From Candidatus Thorarchaeota archaeon (lineage in GTDB: Archaea > Asgardarchaeota > Thorarchaeia > Thorarchaeales > Thorarchaeaceae), in assembly GCA_004376265.1 (NCBI GenBank), contig SOKL01000325.1, positions 1 through 43,681 of the forward strand: a DNA stretch of 43,681 nt, in the 5' to 3' direction. Shown here in pieces: positions 4,628 to 16,321 of the stretch (positions within the stretch are counted from its first letter, which is position 1; the number at the start of each line of letters is the position of its first letter). The notes beneath the pieces were generated by a model. The model had not been told where the DNA came from and ran no database searches. It saw nothing but the letters and a program-made list of their open reading frames with translations. Both the position numbers and the translations under genes were made by a program.

Positions 4628-4667
4628 TACAGAAAATCCTAAGTGTCCGTTGAACATTATTGCAACC

Positions 4668-4856
4668 ATGTCATTTTCCCGTTCATGGCTCTTCTTCATA
4701 ATTGGTGTCTTGTGTGTTGTTCTAGCTGCATCTGGAGTTATACTTAATCTCCCAAGCTCTTGGGGTCTGCTTGAGATAACTCTGTATATGGGTTTCGTCA
4801 CACTTGGAGTGGTTGGTATTTTACGCTTAATATATTTCAGAGGATTAGAAGATTAG
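4668..4856 (+). CDS. Small membrane protein, two transmembrane helices
   Basis: The 62-residue product begins with SFSRS, then a hydrophobic helix (about residues 8-27, rich in Phe, Ile and Val), a short polar turn (NLPSSWG) and a second helix (about 33-54), ending in a charged tail. It has no other recognisable motif. It is the last gene before a T-run terminator and is about 40 bases after the helical protein. An upstream TTG at 4650 would add six residues. Function unknown. Confidence 0.55.
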   Translation: MSFSRSWLFFIIGVLCVVLAASGVILNLPSSWGLLEITLYMGFVTLGVVGILRLIYFRGLED

Positions 4857-4885: not shown

Positions 4886-4900
4886 CGAAACTTTTAATAT
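4886..4900 (+). promoter_or_regulatory. TATA-like promoter for the Hdr operon
   Basis: CGAAAC followed by TTTTAATAT (4892-4900) resembles a BRE/TATA pair and lies about 45 bases before the first possible hdrC start. It follows directly on the terminator, so the redox operon likely has independent transcription. Confidence 0.45.
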
Positions 4901-4945
4901 GGGTCACAGAATCGCTCAGGCATCTGCTGAAAGCAAACTAAGCTT

Positions 4946-5500
4946 ATGGTGCGTATTATGGCTGAACCTGATGAACCAGTTGGACCCCCAATCACATTGG
5001 TTAACCCAATTGATATGTCGAAACTTGACACAAAGTTTCGTGAAGAAATCCAAAGTATGCCAAATGGTGAGGAACTATCCGCCTGTTTTGCGTGCTCGAC
5101 CTGTACGGCAGCATGTCCTATTGCCAACATCTGGGAGTATAAACCTCATCAATTGATTCGAATGATATTATTAGGTATGCGAGAAGAAGTGCTCTCTTCA
5201 GATGAAATCTGGCTCTGTTTGACTTGTTTTCAGTGCCAAGAACGATGTCCACAAAAAGTGCGGGTCACTGACATCTTCTTTGACTGTAAGAACTTAGCTG
5301 CTGAAGATGGGAAAGTACCTCCCAATATTGTTGGTCTTGGTAAAGAATTGCTGGAGAAAGGTCAGCTATACATAGTCACTGCTGATTGGGAACGTGAGGA
5401 TATGGGTCTCGAACCAGAAGTACCTGGTCTTTTGGTTGACCCAGTGAAGAAAATTCTGACGGAAACTCGAACGAAAAAGCTCGTGGAGGGTGGTGAGTAA
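4946..5500 (+). CDS. hdrC: Heterodisulfide reductase subunit C-like protein (HdrC)
   Basis: The 184-residue protein has two classical [4Fe-4S] motifs: CFACSTCTAACP (about residues 48-59) and CLTCFQCQERCP (about 91-102), with the HdrC-type spacing and the following VRVTDIFFD...NLA helix. HdrC is a small cytoplasmic iron-sulfur protein that passes electrons between HdrA and HdrB. It starts the operon hdrC-hdrB-hdrA1-hdrA2. An alternative start at ATG 4958 is slightly better placed behind GGTG (4948-4951). There is no membrane segment, so this is the soluble type rather than HdrE-linked. Confidence 0.92.
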   Translation: MVRIMAEPDEPVGPPITLVNPIDMSKLDTKFREEIQSMPNGEELSACFACSTCTAACPIANIWEYKPHQLIRMILLGMREEVLSSDEIWLCLTCFQCQERCPQKVRVTDIFFDCKNLAAEDGKVPPNIVGLGKELLEKGQLYIVTADWEREDMGLEPEVPGLLVDPVKKILTETRTKKLVEGGE

Positions 5501-5501
5501 G

Positions 5502-6368
5502 GTGCCAGTATACAACTTGTACATGGGTTGTAGCGTACCTGCAAATTATCCAAACTATGAAGCAGCTACGATTAAAGTTGCAGAAGCATTCGACATGCAG
5601 CTAGAATACATGGATGGTGTTGCTTGCTGTGGAAGTCCTAACCTTCGTGCAATAGACTATATGGGATGGCTTACTGTAAATGCGCGAACCTTGGCAATTG
5701 CAGAAAAGAATGGCCATGATATTGTCACACCTTGTAATGGTTGCTTTGCATCACTCAAAGACGTATACCACTTTCTCAAACATGATGATGCCTATAGGAA
5801 AAAGGTCAATGCTGTTCTAAAGAAAGAAAGCCTTGAGTTCAAGGGCACCATAACCCCTCGTCATTTTGTAGAAGCACTGTATACGGATATCGGTGTTGAA
5901 GAGATAAAAAAGAAGATCGTAAAACCTCTGGATGGGGTAGGAATCGCAATTCACTATGGTTGTCATGTTCTGCGACCTGTTGATGTGACTGAATTCAAAC
6001 CTGAATATCTAGACGCGTTAGTAGAGGTTACTGGTGCTTCAGTAATAGAATACCCACTTTGGAAGCAATGCTGTGGGGCGACAGTCTTACCAGTTAACGA
6101 ATCTTTGGCTATACGTTTAGCACGTGACAAGCTGAAGTCGATGAAAGAATACGGTGCAGTGTTTATCACAGTAGTCTGCCCTGCTTGTGGAAATCAGCTC
6201 GATTTGCAACAGCTCGGTTTGAAAGAGTCGTATGGTGAGGAATATAATTTACCAGTGATTCTGTACCCTCAGATTCTTGGACTTGCCTTAGGAATGAATG
6301 AGGAAGAAGTTGGACTTAGTATGAACAGGGTTCCGGCAGACCCGATTCTTAATCATTTGACTAGCTGA
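5502..6368 (+). CDS. hdrB: Heterodisulfide reductase subunit B-like protein (HdrB)
   Basis: The 288-residue product has both CCG domains: YMGCS (near residue 7), ACCGS (about 43) and PCNGC (about 78), then YGCH (about 154), QCCGA (about 192) and CPACG (about 229). In HdrB these cysteines hold the two noncubane [4Fe-4S] clusters that reduce disulfides; all appear present, so the subunit should be catalytic. The true substrate need not be CoM-S-S-CoB, as nothing here indicates methanogenesis. I chose GTG 5502 behind GGTGA (5492-5496); GTG at 5490 and 5493 are alternatives that overlap hdrC. Confidence 0.92.
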   Translation: MPVYNLYMGCSVPANYPNYEAATIKVAEAFDMQLEYMDGVACCGSPNLRAIDYMGWLTVNARTLAIAEKNGHDIVTPCNGCFASLKDVYHFLKHDDAYRKKVNAVLKKESLEFKGTITPRHFVEALYTDIGVEEIKKKIVKPLDGVGIAIHYGCHVLRPVDVTEFKPEYLDALVEVTGASVIEYPLWKQCCGATVLPVNESLAIRLARDKLKSMKEYGAVFITVVCPACGNQLDLQQLGLKESYGEEYNLPVILYPQILGLALGMNEEEVGLSMNRVPADPILNHLTS

Positions 6369-6381
6369 GGTGAATGAAGGA

Positions 6382-7632
6382 GTGTCCAAACCGGTTCTCA
6401 TCATCGGAGCTGGCGTTGCAGGGATGACAGCCGCCGTTGAGCTAGCAGACTCTGGAATGCAAACAATTCTTGTCGAGCGTTTGTCCACAGTAGGTGGTAA
6501 TGCACTTGACCTTTACAAAGCATTTCCAACAGACGACTGTTTCTATTGTTTTGAGGGAAATCGTAGGCGTCCTGGAATACGCAAATGTTTCTACAGAAGT
6601 GCACTAACTGACCAACCCAATATTGACCTAAAGATGAACAGTGAGGTTGACGAAATATCAGGCACTCCCGGTCAGTTTTCAGTGAAGCTCAAAGTTGGTG
6701 CTCAATATGTAGATCCAATGAGATGTACAATGTGTGGTTTGTGTATAGAGAAGTCGGATGCTTTTCGTCTATTATCACCACAATGTCAACCCCAGGCTGT
6801 CGTCTATGACCCTTCAAAGCAGGATGATGGTGCTAAACAAGCTGAAGAAGAATGCCCAACAAAAGCAATTGACCTGAGTGCCCAATCCACTGAAGAAACA
6901 ATCAAAGCGTCAGATATCGTCATTGCTACTGGCTATCATGAAATGCAGCCAACAAATGTGGATGAGTATAGTTATGGAAAACATCCCAATATTGTGACCC
7001 AACTTGAACTGGCACAGATACTCGACCCGCTTGGAAAATCTGGTGGTTCGCTCGTGAGACCGTCTGATGGAAAACCTGCAAAACGTGTATTGATGGTTCA
7101 ATGTGTGGGAAGTCGAGATGAGAATTACTACCCCTATTGTTCAAAGATATGTTGTATCTTTGCTCTCAAGCATGCAAACATTGTCACACAGGAAAGAAAT
7201 GCTACTCAAGTCAGCGTTGTATACATGGATATTCGGACATATGATAGATATGAGAGGTACTACAGAGAATCTCGAGAATCAGGAGTGGAATTCGTTCGCG
7301 GACGGGTTTCTCTTATTACACCCCGTGAAGATAACACTCTAGACATTGTTGTCTATGATTCATTGCTAGACAAGTATCTCAAATTCTCAGTTGACCTCTT
7401 TGTGCTATCATCGGCTCTAGAACCTCCAGCTGATAGTAACAAGATTATCGAAAACTTGGGACTAAAGTCTGTAAGCGGCTTTATTGGTGCTGCAGATCCC
7501 GCCTCAGAGAATGAAGTTGTAGTTGGTGACCATGTATACGCATGTGGTACCGCTTTGGGTCCAGCAGAGATTCCCGAAAGCGTTACACAAGCACGTGCAG
7601 TAGTTTCCAAAATACTACAAAGCAGGAAGTGA
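6382..7632 (+). CDS. HdrA-like FAD/iron-sulfur subunit, short form (HdrA1)
   Basis: This 416-residue flavoprotein starts with a Rossmann motif (LIIGAGVAGMTAAVEL) and keeps HdrA marks: VGGNA, FPTDDCFYC, an inserted iron-sulfur site (CTMCGLC ... ECPTKAI, about residues 115-162), VQCVGSRDE and CSKICCIFALKH. It lacks the N-terminal CxCG domain and the C-terminal ferredoxin of full HdrA, so it resembles QmoA or the short partner of a split HdrA. It probably pairs with the following larger HdrA2; the two share many motifs and likely arose by duplication. The start GTG 6382 follows GAGGTGA (6367-6373); GTG 6370 is possible. FAD binding and electron transfer are inferred from family. Confidence 0.88.
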   Translation: MSKPVLIIGAGVAGMTAAVELADSGMQTILVERLSTVGGNALDLYKAFPTDDCFYCFEGNRRRPGIRKCFYRSALTDQPNIDLKMNSEVDEISGTPGQFSVKLKVGAQYVDPMRCTMCGLCIEKSDAFRLLSPQCQPQAVVYDPSKQDDGAKQAEEECPTKAIDLSAQSTEETIKASDIVIATGYHEMQPTNVDEYSYGKHPNIVTQLELAQILDPLGKSGGSLVRPSDGKPAKRVLMVQCVGSRDENYYPYCSKICCIFALKHANIVTQERNATQVSVVYMDIRTYDRYERYYRESRESGVEFVRGRVSLITPREDNTLDIVVYDSLLDKYLKFSVDLFVLSSALEPPADSNKIIENLGLKSVSGFIGAADPASENEVVVGDHVYACGTALGPAEIPESVTQARAVVSKILQSRK

Positions 7633-7641
7633 AACTGATAG

Positions 7642-9807
7642 ATGGATGACAGTAAATCAGCAGTACTCATCTGCACTTGTGGGAAACAACTCCAGCTGAA
7701 ATACGATTCTTTGGAAAATGACGTTGGAAAGATGAACCTAGCATCATCTGTGACTGTTCATGACTTGGTCTGTCAAGAAGATGGTCTTACAAAGATAGCT
7801 GAATTGCTTAAGGCCAACAACCGTCATCTTGTAGTTGCTGCATGTACCAGCCAGAAGATACAACCCCGAATCAATCAGTATCTAAACTCAAAGGGAATAG
7901 ATGATTCACAGATACAGTATGTGAATATCCGTGAACATTCAGCTTGGGTCCACAAGGAAATTGACGAGGCAAGTCAGAAATCAACAGACATGATCCGTGG
8001 TGCATTAGCAAGGTCCTCGAAATCACATCCCTTTGCATTAGAAAAGAAAGAGGTGCCCAATCATGTCACAGTCATTGGGGGTGGAATTGCTGGCATAGAG
8101 TCGGCTCTTAGTCTCTCGAATCTGGGCTATAAGATTACGCTGCTAGAGATTGCAGAAGTCCTCGGAGGTCATGTAAAGGATCTTCCAGTTGTGGCTCCCA
8201 CCAGAAAATCGGGGAGAGAGATACTCAACGGTCGATTAGAAGCACTCCAGAGTGACGATAACATCACAATAATGACCAAGACCAGAGTCAAGTTTGTCAC
8301 TGGGGAAATGGGTGATTTCACAATTCATTACGCCTCGGATGATGAAGAAGAGCTAACCCTACCAACTTCTGGTATTGTTTTAGCGACAGGGTTTAAGGAG
8401 TTCAAACCTGTAACCATGGAAGAATATCGCTATGGCAAGAATCCCGATGTACTCACGCAGTTTGAACTATCGTGTATCCTGTCTGAAGGTAAACTGGCTA
8501 AACCCTCTGATGGAGAATCAGTGAAAGAAGTTGTAATGGTTCAGTGTGTGGGGAGCCGATCTGAGGATTACAAGAGGGACTGTAGCAAGCTCTGCTGTAC
8601 TTTTGCCATCGATAACTCGCTTGAGATTCTGGAAAAGGTTCCAGATGCAAATGTGCGGATAGTGTACATGGATATCCGTGTACCATTTGAAAATGAGATG
8701 ATCTACAAAGAGTCCCGAGAGAAAGGTGTTGACTATATCCGTGGTCGGGTGAGTATGACCTGGGAATATGAGGGTCAGACTTTCGTTCAAATCTATGACT
8801 CTCTGTTGAACAAGTATCTTGAGATACCTGTAGACCTACTTGTTCTCTCATCTGCTATACTGCCACCTGATGGAGTTTCCGAGCTTTCAGAAACTTTGGG
8901 CTATGCTGTTGAAGAAGATGGACATGTGAAAGAGCTCTATGGAAAACTAAGGCGAAACGAGACCCGTCGGCGGGGAGTTGTAGCAGCTGGAGGTGTCACA
9001 AGACCACAGTTTGTCTTCGAGGCTGTCACAGACGCACAAGCTGGAGCACTCATCCTTCACAATGAACTACAGGGAGGAAATATCGAGTCTGTAGCACGTG
9101 GAGCAGTGTTAGATGTGGATGACTGCGTTGGGTGTAGTCTTTGTGCTCAACAGTGTCCCCGTGGCGTACCTCTTATGGTTGAGCAGACTGAGGTGGAGGA
9201 AGTCGATGAAGACCAAAAGATTCTCTTCAAGGCCGCTCTTGATATATTAAACTGCCATTGTTGTGGAGTCTGTCAAAGCCTTTGTCCATCTGGAGCAATC
9301 AATCTCAATGTTCTTTCAAATGATCAGCTCTGGGCTGAAATCGATGCGTTGCTTGAAGGTGCAGGTCCAGAATATCCCATCACTCTCTGTTTCTATTGTG
9401 AAGAATGCTCCGTTTCAACGATTGATATCGTTGGAACTCAAAAGATGGAGTATCCTGCAAGCACTCGTTTCATTCCTGTTCCATGTGCAGGCCGAGTGAG
9501 CATCATAGATATTCTAAAGGGCTTTGAAAATGGAGCCAGCACAGTCATGATTGCCGCCTGTGAAAAGGATCGTTGCCATATTGGAGGAACTGGGAATGAG
9601 ATTGCACAAGTACAGGTAGACGTGGCTCAAGACATACTGAACGCCATTGGTTGGAAAGGTCAGCGAATAGATATGTTCAGGATGTTCAGTGCGGAACCAC
9701 AACGATTCACTAATGCAATCAATGAGATGGTGAAGCGTGCCAAAAAGTTAGGACCGACACCAGTCCATAAAGGAACTGCTGGCAAGTGGATGGAGGTGAG
9801 CGAGTGA
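7642..9807 (+). CDS. hdrA: HdrA-MvhD fusion, flavoprotein with ferredoxin and delta-subunit domains (HdrA2)
   Basis: A 721-residue fusion. Residues 1-130 hold the N-terminal HdrA domain (ICTCG near residue 11, AACTSQK near 73). An FAD-binding Rossmann motif (VIGGGIAGIESA) lies near 143. VQCVGSRSE and CSKLCCTFA follow near 300-320. A two-cluster ferredoxin occupies about 494-550 (CVGCSLCAQQCP and CHCCGVCQSLCPSGAI). The last ~140 residues (from about 580) form an MvhD domain with CFYCEECS, PCAGR, CEKDRCHIGG and a C-terminal motif. In methanogens MvhD is a separate protein that feeds electrons from hydrogenase or formate dehydrogenase into HdrA. Fusion suggests direct input from another donor. 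It overlaps the next gene by a GTGA junction. Confidence 0.92.
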   Translation: MDDSKSAVLICTCGKQLQLKYDSLENDVGKMNLASSVTVHDLVCQEDGLTKIAELLKANNRHLVVAACTSQKIQPRINQYLNSKGIDDSQIQYVNIREHSAWVHKEIDEASQKSTDMIRGALARSSKSHPFALEKKEVPNHVTVIGGGIAGIESALSLSNLGYKITLLEIAEVLGGHVKDLPVVAPTRKSGREILNGRLEALQSDDNITIMTKTRVKFVTGEMGDFTIHYASDDEEELTLPTSGIVLATGFKEFKPVTMEEYRYGKNPDVLTQFELSCILSEGKLAKPSDGESVKEVVMVQCVGSRSEDYKRDCSKLCCTFAIDNSLEILEKVPDANVRIVYMDIRVPFENEMIYKESREKGVDYIRGRVSMTWEYEGQTFVQIYDSLLNKYLEIPVDLLVLSSAILPPDGVSELSETLGYAVEEDGHVKELYGKLRRNETRRRGVVAAGGVTRPQFVFEAVTDAQAGALILHNELQGGNIESVARGAVLDVDDCVGCSLCAQQCPRGVPLMVEQTEVEEVDEDQKILFKAALDILNCHCCGVCQSLCPSGAINLNVLSNDQLWAEIDALLEGAGPEYPITLCFYCEECSVSTIDIVGTQKMEYPASTRFIPVPCAGRVSIIDILKGFENGASTVMIAACEKDRCHIGGTGNEIAQVQVDVAQDILNAIGWKGQRIDMFRMFSAEPQRFTNAINEMVKRAKKLGPTPVHKGTAGKWMEVSE

Positions 9808-12065
9808 GTCATTCTACATCTGAGAAGACCATTGCGCCAAAGAGACAACGTATGTTGGATATGGTCCTAGCACTAGGTGGTCTCAAAGAAGAGTCTGCAA
9901 TTCCATTAGGTAAAGTCAAGGAAGAACTAGAAAATCTAAAGACCAAGCTAGCACCCCTTACTGATTCAATTCTCGCGTTTCCTGACTCTTATTTTGGAGA
10001 ATTCCTTCAAGCCTTTGAGAAAGCTAATCTAACATCTGAAATTAATGACAAAGGTATTCTCCAAGAGGCAATATCTAATCTCGAACAATCTCGGTCAATT
10101 ACTGAATCTGAATCTTTGAAGGGTCTACTCGAACTACTTTCGGACACTCTTTCCAAAATGACAGTAGTAGAAGAAACCCAAGTCAGTATAGACGTTGACA
10201 TGGGAGCTATCCTCTCCATAATATCGGATTTGACATCTGAGATTGAGTTGGTTATTATTCAATTCGAGGAGACTTCCAAAGCAGAGGCTGAATCCGCCAG
10301 TTCTGAACTAGTCACTCTGATTGACGCCCTCAAAGAAGCAACAGAGAAAACAGAAACTGACCCAGACCTTGCTTTAGCTGAATTTCAAAAAATAGGCACA
10401 AAGACTCGATACGGTTCCGGCCTGAGAACAACAGCACAGGTAAAGAGAGGAAAACGAGAGGAACGAATAGATGATGTCCGTTTTTCAAAGCTTGTCAAAG
10501 AGAACATCCTCAACGAAGTGCATCGTGGCATAATCATGTTCATTCTTGGGAAGATGGGTTCAAAGACTGTTGTTCAGGCAGGAGAACTCATGAACATTTC
10601 ACCCCAGATTGTGCAGAATGCACTCGTGACAATGATTCAGAGAGGAGAGATAGAGATGGTCAGCCTTGAGGGTGACGCACCTGTCTTCTCAAAAATGCTT
10701 ACAGAAACTCCAAACTCAACTCTAGTCCTGAAGAGGATTGTTCAACAAGTTCGTGGAATGACAAAGTCTTTGGAAGATGATGAGGTCAATACTGCGAGTT
10801 CATCACTTGAAAAATTACAAACACTGCATGAACGGCTACAGATACTTGGAACTTATGATGAAACAGCGCTCTCTGAAAGTCTGAACAAGCTGAGAGAAAC
10901 AGTTGATAGTGCCACCGAAGCTCTACTTTCTTCGCAGACATCTGATGATGCAGAGAATCTCAGACTTCTGGTTTCTGCAGGGCTTGAAGCCTTTGCTAGA
11001 TTCCGGTTGAAAATCACTCTAGAGAAAGGTCCCAATCTTGTATCGGGAACAAATGTCTACGGAGAGAAATTGGATCCTGAAGTCTATCAAACTATGATGG
11101 ACACCTATCTTGAGAATGAACTTGAGAGAGGCACAATTTTGATTCTGATTCGAGAACTTGGAGCACTGGCTGTTAAGGACCTTGGTGAAAGGACTAGTAT
11201 CCCTCCAGACAGAATTCTCAGACATCTCCTCAGAATGAAACGCGACGAGCTCCTTACAACAGCCGGGGAGAGTCATGGCTACATACTCTATGATGTACCG
11301 AGAACCCCCTCTGAGGCAGAAATCATTGTTCAGACAGAATGCAGTCTTGCCCTCCAACTCTCCGAGGCAAAAGCTGAGCTTGTAAGAATTCTTGGTGATT
11401 TCAATGCCCAAGACATTGGTAAGCTAGCCACTTCATTGGAAACTTTCGCTAGAGCTCGTGACAAATTGGTCACAATCAAAGTAGGTGGCGCCATTGTTGA
11501 TGAGTCTGCCCTCATAGAAGTGGAGAATAAGATACAATCTGCAGTCATGCTTGCTTATCGGACTCGTGCCAAAATCCCAAGCACAAGACCAAAAGTGACT
11601 CTTGAAGACCTTGTAGATGTAGATGTACCATCGGTATTAGATGAGTACAAGAGTCAAATGGGTTACGCACCCCTTCTAGGCTTTGGTACAGTGAACTGGG
11701 AACACTCGAAATGTCTTGGTTGCAAGTCTTGTGAACTCGTCTGCCCCGAAGATGCAATAGAGCTAAAACCACGGATTGAGATATCAAACTTCTTTGAAAC
11801 CTCCGATGAGGCATTAGCCGAACTACCAACAAACCGTTCCTTATTCTACAAAACTCTACAGAATCTTGCCACAGTGAAACCATCGAAGGATATCCAGCTA
11901 AAGAAAGAAGCCCCTGGATTTGGTAGTGTCGAAGTTGATCTCTGGCTTTGTGTGGCATGTCGTACTTGTGTTAGACGATGTCCTGGGCCCGAGAGAGGTG
12001 CTTTAGAATTGGAATTGAAGTGGAACTTACCTGAGGTTGTGAAGCATATCACATCAACTCCTTAG
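9804..12065 (+). CDS. Large protein with two winged-helix-like regions and a C-terminal split 2[4Fe-4S] ferredoxin
   Basis: The 753-residue protein has no single family I can name. Residues 1-225 are long acidic helices, probably coiled coil. A winged-helix-like region (about 228-290: GIIMFILGKMGSKTV, then a recognition-helix-like MNISPQIVQNALVTMIQRGEI) recurs at about 436-500 (RGTILILIRELGALAVKDLGERTSIP...RHLLRMKRDEL), each followed by more helices. The C-terminus has two cluster motifs, CLGCKSCELVCP (637-648) and CVACRTCVRRCP (716-727), about 70 residues apart. I infer an iron-sulfur electron carrier or redox-sensing scaffold of the Hdr complex. GTG 9804 overlaps the hdrA2 stop and follows GGAGGTGA (9792-9799). 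Its placement inside the operon argues for a structural partner rather than a free regulator. Confidence 0.8.
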   Translation: MSHSTSEKTIAPKRQRMLDMVLALGGLKEESAIPLGKVKEELENLKTKLAPLTDSILAFPDSYFGEFLQAFEKANLTSEINDKGILQEAISNLEQSRSITESESLKGLLELLSDTLSKMTVVEETQVSIDVDMGAILSIISDLTSEIELVIIQFEETSKAEAESASSELVTLIDALKEATEKTETDPDLALAEFQKIGTKTRYGSGLRTTAQVKRGKREERIDDVRFSKLVKENILNEVHRGIIMFILGKMGSKTVVQAGELMNISPQIVQNALVTMIQRGEIEMVSLEGDAPVFSKMLTETPNSTLVLKRIVQQVRGMTKSLEDDEVNTASSSLEKLQTLHERLQILGTYDETALSESLNKLRETVDSATEALLSSQTSDDAENLRLLVSAGLEAFARFRLKITLEKGPNLVSGTNVYGEKLDPEVYQTMMDTYLENELERGTILILIRELGALAVKDLGERTSIPPDRILRHLLRMKRDELLTTAGESHGYILYDVPRTPSEAEIIVQTECSLALQLSEAKAELVRILGDFNAQDIGKLATSLETFARARDKLVTIKVGGAIVDESALIEVENKIQSAVMLAYRTRAKIPSTRPKVTLEDLVDVDVPSVLDEYKSQMGYAPLLGFGTVNWEHSKCLGCKSCELVCPEDAIELKPRIEISNFFETSDEALAELPTNRSLFYKTLQNLATVKPSKDIQLKKEAPGFGSVEVDLWLCVACRTCVRRCPGPERGALELELKWNLPEVVKHITSTP

Positions 12066-15766: not shown

Positions 15767-15800
15767 CATCAATCTTAGGCTGTATCTGGTACTTCAATGG

Positions 15801-15823
15801 TCGGTGCATGCAGCCGAACACAT
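15801..15823 (+). repeat. Palindromic repeat, copy 3 (upstream of the mvhD-like gene)
   Basis: TCGGTGCATGCAGCCGA, one base different from copies 1 and 2, followed by ACACAT as in copy 2. It lies about 30 bases upstream of a TATA-like GATTATAT (15852-15859), a position that suits an activator site for the mvhD-like gene. Confidence 0.7.
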
Positions 15824-15910
15824 GTATTTGTCATAATATCTGCACATCTGAAAGATTATATGTCACATTTATTTCTGCGGTCTAACAAGGCTCTTGGATG
15901 GACAATTGAT

Positions 15911-16321
15911 ATGCCGCCAAAAGACATGAATCTCATAATTCTGGGTTGTATGCAATGCATGTACGCTGCATCGGACCTTGCGGGAACGATGAAGCTGCAG
16001 TACGATATCGCGAGCAGGATAATCAGAATGCCTTGTACTGCTAGACTGGACATCAACTTCATTCTCAAGGCACTACAAGAAGGGGCTGATGGGGTTCTTG
16101 TCATTGGGTGTCACCCAGGTGATTGTGCATATAAGACTGGAAATTTGGGAGCTGAGCGGCGAGTTAGGTTTGCTAGAAAATTAGTCGGTCAACTTGGCCT
16201 GAATGAAGACAGAGTGAAGATGGTCTTTGTAAGTGCTGCAGAGGGTGACAAGTTTGCGGCTGAGATTAACCAGTTTGCTGATGAAATAAGAGAGATCGGA
16301 CCTAACCCAATCAGACTGTGA
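15911..16321 (+). CDS. Stand-alone MvhD/FlpD-like iron-sulfur protein
   Basis: The 136-residue protein matches the MvhD domain: LGCMQCMYAASD (about residues 11-22), MPCTARLD (about 40), GCHPGDCAYKTGN (about 66-78) and the C-terminal RVKMVFVSAAEGDKFA...F. These cysteines bind a [2Fe-2S] cluster in methanogen hydrogenase complexes, where MvhD passes electrons to HdrA. It may supply an alternative input to the Hdr complex encoded at 5-12 kb, which already has one fused MvhD domain. ATG 15911 lies about 55 bases after a TATA-like sequence; longer forms from 15860 or 15797 are possible but their N-termini do not look like the family. A decayed second copy lies 500 bases downstream. Confidence 0.85.
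   Translation: MPPKDMNLIILGCMQCMYAASDLAGTMKLQYDIASRIIRMPCTARLDINFILKALQEGADGVLVIGCHPGDCAYKTGNLGAERRVRFARKLVGQLGLNEDRVKMVFVSAAEGDKFAAEINQFADEIREIGPNPIRL

Follow-up and report, generated by a model that had tools for sequence, protein, structure and literature searches.

Hdr complexes have a central place in the energy conservation of anaerobic archaea, and several of them occur in Asgard archaea. Fusions of HdrA to MvhD and multiple copies of HdrA have been described in Asgard archaea in a study whose text makes no mention of helix-turn-helix domains (PMC11237513). In methane-metabolizing archaea GltD is inserted in HdrA (Type III); use of NAD(P)H has been predicted for this form and two insertion events have been inferred (PMC12054007).

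The locus analysed here lies in a window of 43,681 nt (the whole stretch of DNA that was analysed) and encodes, directly after HdrA2/MvhD, a protein that combines an N-terminal helical domain, two winged helices and a dicluster ferredoxin in one chain. The GltD-type NAD(P)H cassette of Type III HdrA recurs in six orthologues of this protein, where it is found in the winged-helix–ferredoxin partner and not in HdrA; the protein of the window lacks the cassette. A literature search, with subscription journals outside its scope, found no work linking MvhD or HdrA to a winged helix in Asgard archaea; the sole paper in which these terms occur together concerns Methanothermobacter (PMC3087415). We class the studied protein as a novel accessory Hdr subunit; the literature searched yielded no description of it. 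Our preferred interpretation, to which we assign a probability of about 0.74, is that it is a stoichiometric wiring or docking subunit of a cytosolic Thorarchaeota Hdr complex whose genes lie with that of an acyl-CoA dehydrogenase, and that its winged helices serve as protein connectors.

The gene and its operon

The host genome comprises 3.0 Mb in 393 contigs, and its nearest named relatives are Thorarchaeota MAGs. The open frame of the studied gene was confirmed (Table 1). It starts with GTG, which is preceded by the Shine–Dalgarno-like sequence GGAGGTGA with a gap of 4 nt, and it shares 4 nt with the end of hdrA2/mvhD (a GTGA overlap, the stop of the latter ending at 9807). Upstream, the hdrB-like subunit also matches TIGR03288 (E = 1.1e-82; 277.6 bits, under the cut-off of 345), and the FlpD match in the HdrA2/MvhD protein covers residues 582–704 (E = 1.6e-31). 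The short HdrA-like flavoprotein is without the C-terminal ferredoxin and the MvhD part. The short HdrA and the long HdrA2 thus look complementary, with ferredoxin and MvhD only on the long one; HdrA domains with complementary losses have been reported in ANME-1 (PMC9012536).

Table 1. Positions in the window of the Hdr operon genes and of the parts of the studied protein.
Feature	Position	Strand	Basis or remark
hdrC-like subunit, 184 aa, two CxxCxxCxxxC motifs	4946..5500	+	TIGR03290, E = 6.6e-29 (below cut-off); Fer4_8
hdrB-like subunit, 292 aa, two CCG domains	5490..6368	+	PF02754, E = 8.4e-29
Short HdrA-like flavoprotein, 420 aa	6370..7632	+	NF040770 (HdrA2), model positions 138–556 of 777, E = 4.2e-88
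HdrA2 with C-terminal dicluster ferredoxin and fused MvhD/FlpD, 721 aa	7642..9807	+	NF040770, E = 5.7e-136
Shine–Dalgarno-like GGAGGTGA	9792..9799	+	Inside 3' end of hdrA2/mvhD; read directly
Studied gene, putative Hdr subunit with two winged helices and dicluster ferredoxin	9804..12065	+	753 aa
N-terminal helical domain, residues 13–120	9840..10163	+	Alignment, profile search, AlphaFold helices
TRYG motif, residues 201–204	10404..10415	+	Fixed GltD-cassette site in six orthologues; no cassette here
Winged helix 1, residues 224–297	10473..10694	+	AlphaFold; MarR_2, E = 1e-4 (below cut-off); profile matches to Hdr-cluster winged helices
Winged helix 2 with N-terminal extension, residues 386–500 (winged helix 425–498)	10959..11303	+	AlphaFold domain model, Foldseek, domain alignments
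Dicluster ferredoxin domain, residues 610–750	11631..12053	+	Fer4_7, E = 3.6e-9; homology to Hdr-cluster ferredoxins
Predicted [4Fe-4S] motif 1, C637-x2-C640-x2-C643-x3-C647	11712..11744	+	Invariant in 23 and 30 sequences
Predicted [4Fe-4S] motif 2, C716-x2-C719-x2-C722-x3-C726	11949..11981	+	Invariant in 23 and 30 sequences
Acyl-CoA dehydrogenase, 399 aa	12126..13325	+	PF00441, E = 4.4e-49; next gene

Full-length orthologues with 52–77% identity are present in most of the searched genomes from its own genus and family. The gene also occurs in 38 named loci, all labelled Thorarchaeota save two labelled just 'archaeon' and one labelled Lokiarchaeota. The order hdrC–hdrB–hdrA–hdrA2/mvhD–studied gene–acyl-CoA dehydrogenase is usual in most of these, the hdrC-like gene being part of the operon in orthologous loci as well and the acyl-CoA dehydrogenase adjoining the studied gene in nearly all of them. 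The clear exceptions to the gene order are contigs that are cut short and the loci L087 and L068. The start codon lies at the identical 4-nt overlap with hdrA2/mvhD in 33 of 34 orthologous loci, and the sole locus without it is L087, where another gene is inserted. The conserved order and overlap argue for a translationally coupled, stoichiometric partner of Hdr, as a sequence-only reading of this locus had proposed from the GTGA overlap. The gene is fixed in the hdr operon and its start overlaps the preceding hdr gene, which is what we would expect of an Hdr subunit.

The two exceptional loci merit a brief description. In L087, from one Thorarchaeon, the gene between hdrA2/mvhD and the studied gene (7611–9182, − strand) encodes a 523-aa protein that consists of numerous helix-turn-helix-like matches, Sigma70_r4 and HTH_38 among them. 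In L068 / L173 (G036) the studied gene and the acyl-CoA dehydrogenase are kept and the upstream hdrA2/mvhD is a 120-aa remnant, the result of either a rearrangement or an assembly error.

Architecture of the protein and the fold of the repeats

The sequence-only reading had described two helix-turn-helix-like regions, long acidic helices and two terminal [4Fe-4S] motifs in an order known from no family, and this description holds up well. Neither Pfam nor NCBIfam contains a model that spans the full architecture. Searches of the same collections found neither an HdrA core nor, in the form present in the window, a GltD domain, and the Pfam search found no FlpD (PF02662) domain. A full-length AlphaFold model (monomer, 30-sequence alignment, mean pLDDT of 69.7) shows the N-terminal helical domain followed by a winged helix at 224–297, long helices and a helix-turn-helix region at 425–490; the C-terminal ferredoxin part is poorly modelled (pLDDT of about 30–67). 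The acidic stretches, residues 128–201 (net charge −12) and 303–385 (net charge −7), are predicted to be helical. The N-terminal domain is also kept in the cassette variants described below.

The first winged helix has the expected elements in the full-length model (helices 224–250, 256–263 and 267–279, strands 283–289 and 292–297). A domain model of residues 386–504, calculated with an alignment that included both repeats, gave a clear winged helix with a core pLDDT of 92–96, so that the structure prediction and fold search suggested by the earlier reading as a check returned winged helices for the repeats. With the domain model, nearly all of the top Foldseek matches are winged-helix proteins of the Z-alpha, SmtB and MarR types (probability near 1, but E ≥ 0.003). 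The best matches of the full-length search, RPC62 among them, are winged-helix or helical proteins with E > 0.01 and are uninformative beyond the fold. PDB sequence matches of the winged-helix domain profile are mainly transcription factors.

Profiles of the two repeats (residues 200–305 and 386–505) match each other in orthologues with domain E values of 2e-6 to 5e-5 and, in the reverse direction, of 2.4e-7 and 2.7e-5. These reciprocal matches indicate that the duplication is real; together with the AlphaFold structure, they rule out a chance repeat.

A winged-helix domain associated with Hdr clusters

Both repeat profiles also match proteins of ∼115–121 aa and the C-termini (∼110 aa) of MvhD proteins in other Asgard families, with domain E values down to 6e-14. 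One MvhD fusion is 33% identical to repeat 2 over 92 aa (E = 4e-14), with NVYGEK in common, and its winged helix scores above the cut-off of Pfam HTH_5. With a profile built from eleven such domains, matches at E ≤ 1e-4 were obtained in 142 of 196 Asgard genomes. Among the domains outside the studied family, all 40 of the gene neighbourhoods examined lie near Hdr genes (26 MvhD fusions, one HdrA–MvhD fusion and 13 stand-alone proteins), although these came from strong matches, so that specificity may be lower among the weaker matches in the 142 genomes. The repeats of the window fit this domain in profile similarity, in the residues R401, E439 and R442 and in the helical N-terminal extension. 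By these comparisons, both repeats are members of a single Hdr-associated winged-helix domain family, which is defined in this analysis.

The relatives differ in how the domain is deployed. The MvhD/FlpD (PF02662) proteins with a C-terminal winged helix (for example L046:13124–13897 and L047:6260–7066) also adjoin HdrA and share the NVYGEK and E..ER motifs with the studied protein, whereas the latter carries the winged helix in two copies, linked to a dicluster ferredoxin and an N-terminal helical domain. The stand-alone proteins of ∼115–121 aa (for example L045:3618–3992 and L050:8429–8794) are homologous to both repeats and mostly adjacent to hdrA or mvhD but, unlike the studied protein, consist of a single domain without Fe–S motifs.

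The ferredoxin part

The eight cysteines of the two CxxCxxCxxxC motifs (637/640/643/647 and 716/719/722/726) are invariant in both the 23-sequence and the 30-sequence alignment of orthologues, and from these motifs two [4Fe-4S] clusters are predicted. The motifs are separated by 68 residues, close to the roughly 70 originally estimated. A profile of this part matches stand-alone ferredoxins of ∼160 aa and MvhD–ferredoxin fusions of other Hdr clusters, which have a GFG-type motif ahead of each cluster motif and an inter-motif spacing of 65–71 residues; the studied protein has both features. The same motifs and spacing are found in the dicluster ferredoxins of L048 (7221–7703) and L049 (7990–8475) and in those fused to MvhD in L051, L052 and L053. 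The split that had been remarked upon thus exists but is not unusual for Hdr clusters, and a new ferredoxin type on account of it can be ruled out.

These Hdr-cluster ferredoxins are free-standing or joined to MvhD, whereas that of the studied protein is joined to winged helices. The studied protein is thus a union of modules which other Hdr operons encode individually or fused to MvhD.

Variants with a GltD cassette

Six orthologues (L088, L089, L091, L092, L093 and G116, the last at L135) carry a GltD-type cassette of 469 aa at one fixed site, immediately following the TR[YF]G motif. The cassette matches PRK12771 with E = 1.9e-145 and contains motifs for FAD (GAGPAG) and NAD(P) (GGGNAA) as well as Fe–S cysteines. 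Under the rule that GxGxxG denotes NAD and GxGxxA denotes NADP (PMC12054007), GGGNAA leans towards NADP(H) as the preferred cofactor. Both winged helices are retained in the G116 variant; the other five are without winged helix 1 and retain winged helix 2 and the ferredoxin. On the hdrA2/mvhD tree the distribution of the cassette needs two changes, compared with the two insertion events inferred for Type III HdrA.

Among the loci compared, the closest relatives of the cassette outside the family are found in HdrA-like proteins, mostly of ∼1126–1135 aa, from other Thorarchaeota Hdr clusters (∼54–59% identity). In three other Thorarchaeota loci (L132, L142 and L159), second Hdr clusters with GltD-bearing HdrA-like proteins of ∼1126–1132 aa also contain stand-alone winged-helix proteins of ∼115–124 aa.

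The variants bear on the question of whether the protein carries electrons at all. It could be a purely structural scaffold in which the clusters serve to stabilize the fold and have no part in physiological electron transfer, and its composition of mostly helical linkers and docking-type domains in the AlphaFold models would suit such a function. The cluster motifs are, however, invariant and homologous to those of free-standing Hdr-cluster ferredoxins, and six orthologues contain a redox flavoprotein cassette. We regard a purely structural function as very unlikely and favour a subunit that combines docking with electron transfer.

Protein connectors or DNA-binding domains

Winged helices mostly bind DNA, which counts against a docking role, and an ArsR-type regulator occurs in sulfur-oxidizing shdr clusters. 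One of the two functions put forward in the sequence-only reading was a redox-sensing regulator tethered to the complex. In the version considered here, the clusters would sense the redox state while the two winged helices bind the hdr promoter or other DNA. The fold is that of MarR and ArsR transcription regulators by AlphaFold and Foldseek, and ArsR, MarR, SmtB and Z-alpha proteins are neighbours in the structure and sequence searches. The recognition helix of repeat 2 is basic, with a mean charge of +3.5, compared with −0.2 in repeat 1 and about neutral in the MvhD fusions. Further, a AAACTTTTAATATGGG-type element upstream of hdrC (4887–4903, + strand) is conserved.

Other aspects of the data fit this function poorly. 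Across 70 aligned domains from all architectures, R401, E439 and R442 show no substitution; these residues map to helix 1 and the N-terminal extension, not to the recognition helix. The wing is net negative in all four domain groups. Homologue alignment had been suggested as a check on the cysteines and the recognition helices; the former are conserved, but the regional mean conservation of the winged-helix domain does not set the recognition helix apart from the remainder, and the protein-contact reading thus draws its support from the invariant positions, the charges and the fusions. The element upstream of hdrC resembles an archaeal TATA box, and the conservation there fits a TATA-type promoter; in an alignment of this region over seven near relatives, no operator-like palindrome was evident by eye. 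The 4-nt overlap with hdrA2/mvhD suits a subunit, the regulator-type architecture of the MarR/ArsR proteins is absent, and the fusions of the domain to electron-transfer proteins (MvhD and HdrA–MvhD) in other lineages are hard to reconcile with a transcription-factor role. A redox-sensing regulator was set aside as the main interpretation on the basis of the fusion partners, the conservation pattern and the lack of an evident operator, and is in our view highly improbable. Conservation and context point instead to protein contacts, favouring a winged-helix surface that binds other proteins.

An intermediate possibility is a moonlighting trigger enzyme, in which a genuine Hdr subunit would double as a DNA- or RNA-binding protein when in one of its redox states. 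The protein does contain both types of module, and a basic, conserved recognition helix has been kept by repeat 2 and not by repeat 1. No positive evidence for a nucleic-acid target emerged from the analysis, however, and five of the six GltD variants described above keep only one winged helix; we consider this dual function unlikely. The most far-reaching version, in which an Asgard Hdr complex has its own DNA-reading winged helices, with the basic, conserved recognition helix of repeat 2 as a candidate DNA-binding element, and passes its redox state directly to the genome as an electron-bifurcating trigger enzyme, is decidedly unlikely.

A model for the proposed docking subunit

In the docking interpretation, the studied subunit would sit on HdrA2/MvhD via its winged helices, which would seat the ferredoxin against HdrA2/MvhD and are most likely protein connectors rather than DNA readers. 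A scaffold with protein-binding helix-turn-helix folds was the other function put forward from the sequence, and it gains support from the occurrence of the same domain fused to or beside MvhD in other Asgard Hdr clusters. The two predicted [4Fe-4S] clusters would pass electrons between HdrA2/MvhD and a partner. The computations establish the family with its architecture, the domain relationships, the setting in Hdr clusters and the variants with their site, whereas the complex, the docking role, the direction of electron flow and the substrate are inferred. In the cassette-bearing orthologues this partner would be built in, with NAD(P)H as the likely electron donor or acceptor. The form in the window would depend on a separate partner, for which the adjoining acyl-CoA dehydrogenase, a free NAD(P)H oxidoreductase and a ferredoxin are candidates. 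A [NiFe]-hydrogenase was also considered as the electron partner; hydrogenase-like genes occur widely across the family, but none lies in the operon.

The adjoining acyl-CoA dehydrogenase suggests that acyl-CoA/enoyl-CoA chemistry may be coupled with ferredoxin and NAD(P)H. A search of 25 family genomes found ETF genes in 21, and the acyl-CoA dehydrogenase therefore does not have to rely on the Hdr complex. The proposal that Hdr replaces ETF for this enzyme, which predicted that ETF would be absent, fails on the same count.

The family would add a subunit previously undescribed in the literature searched to one Asgard Hdr complex, and the winged-helix domain itself, found in Hdr clusters wherever neighbourhoods were examined, would be another example of a DNA-binding fold that seems to have been turned into a docking module for a redox enzyme. 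The orthologues form a natural swap series (plain, cassette with two winged helices, and cassette with one) that predicts the electron entry point, and the electron partner of the Thorarchaeota Hdr–acyl-CoA dehydrogenase operon becomes directly testable.

Neighbouring genes

Two genes flanking the operon were noted. Between the GINS-side genes and hdrC, a 68-aa ORF (4650–4856, + strand) without a Pfam match apparently encodes two hydrophobic segments; counterparts are found at the matching place in about 25 Thorarchaeota loci (28 BLAST hits, a few of which are probably spurious). A second, stand-alone MvhD (15797–16321, + strand; FlpD, E = 1.1e-43) is encoded ∼2.5 kb downstream of the acyl-CoA dehydrogenase and is similarly placed in several relatives.
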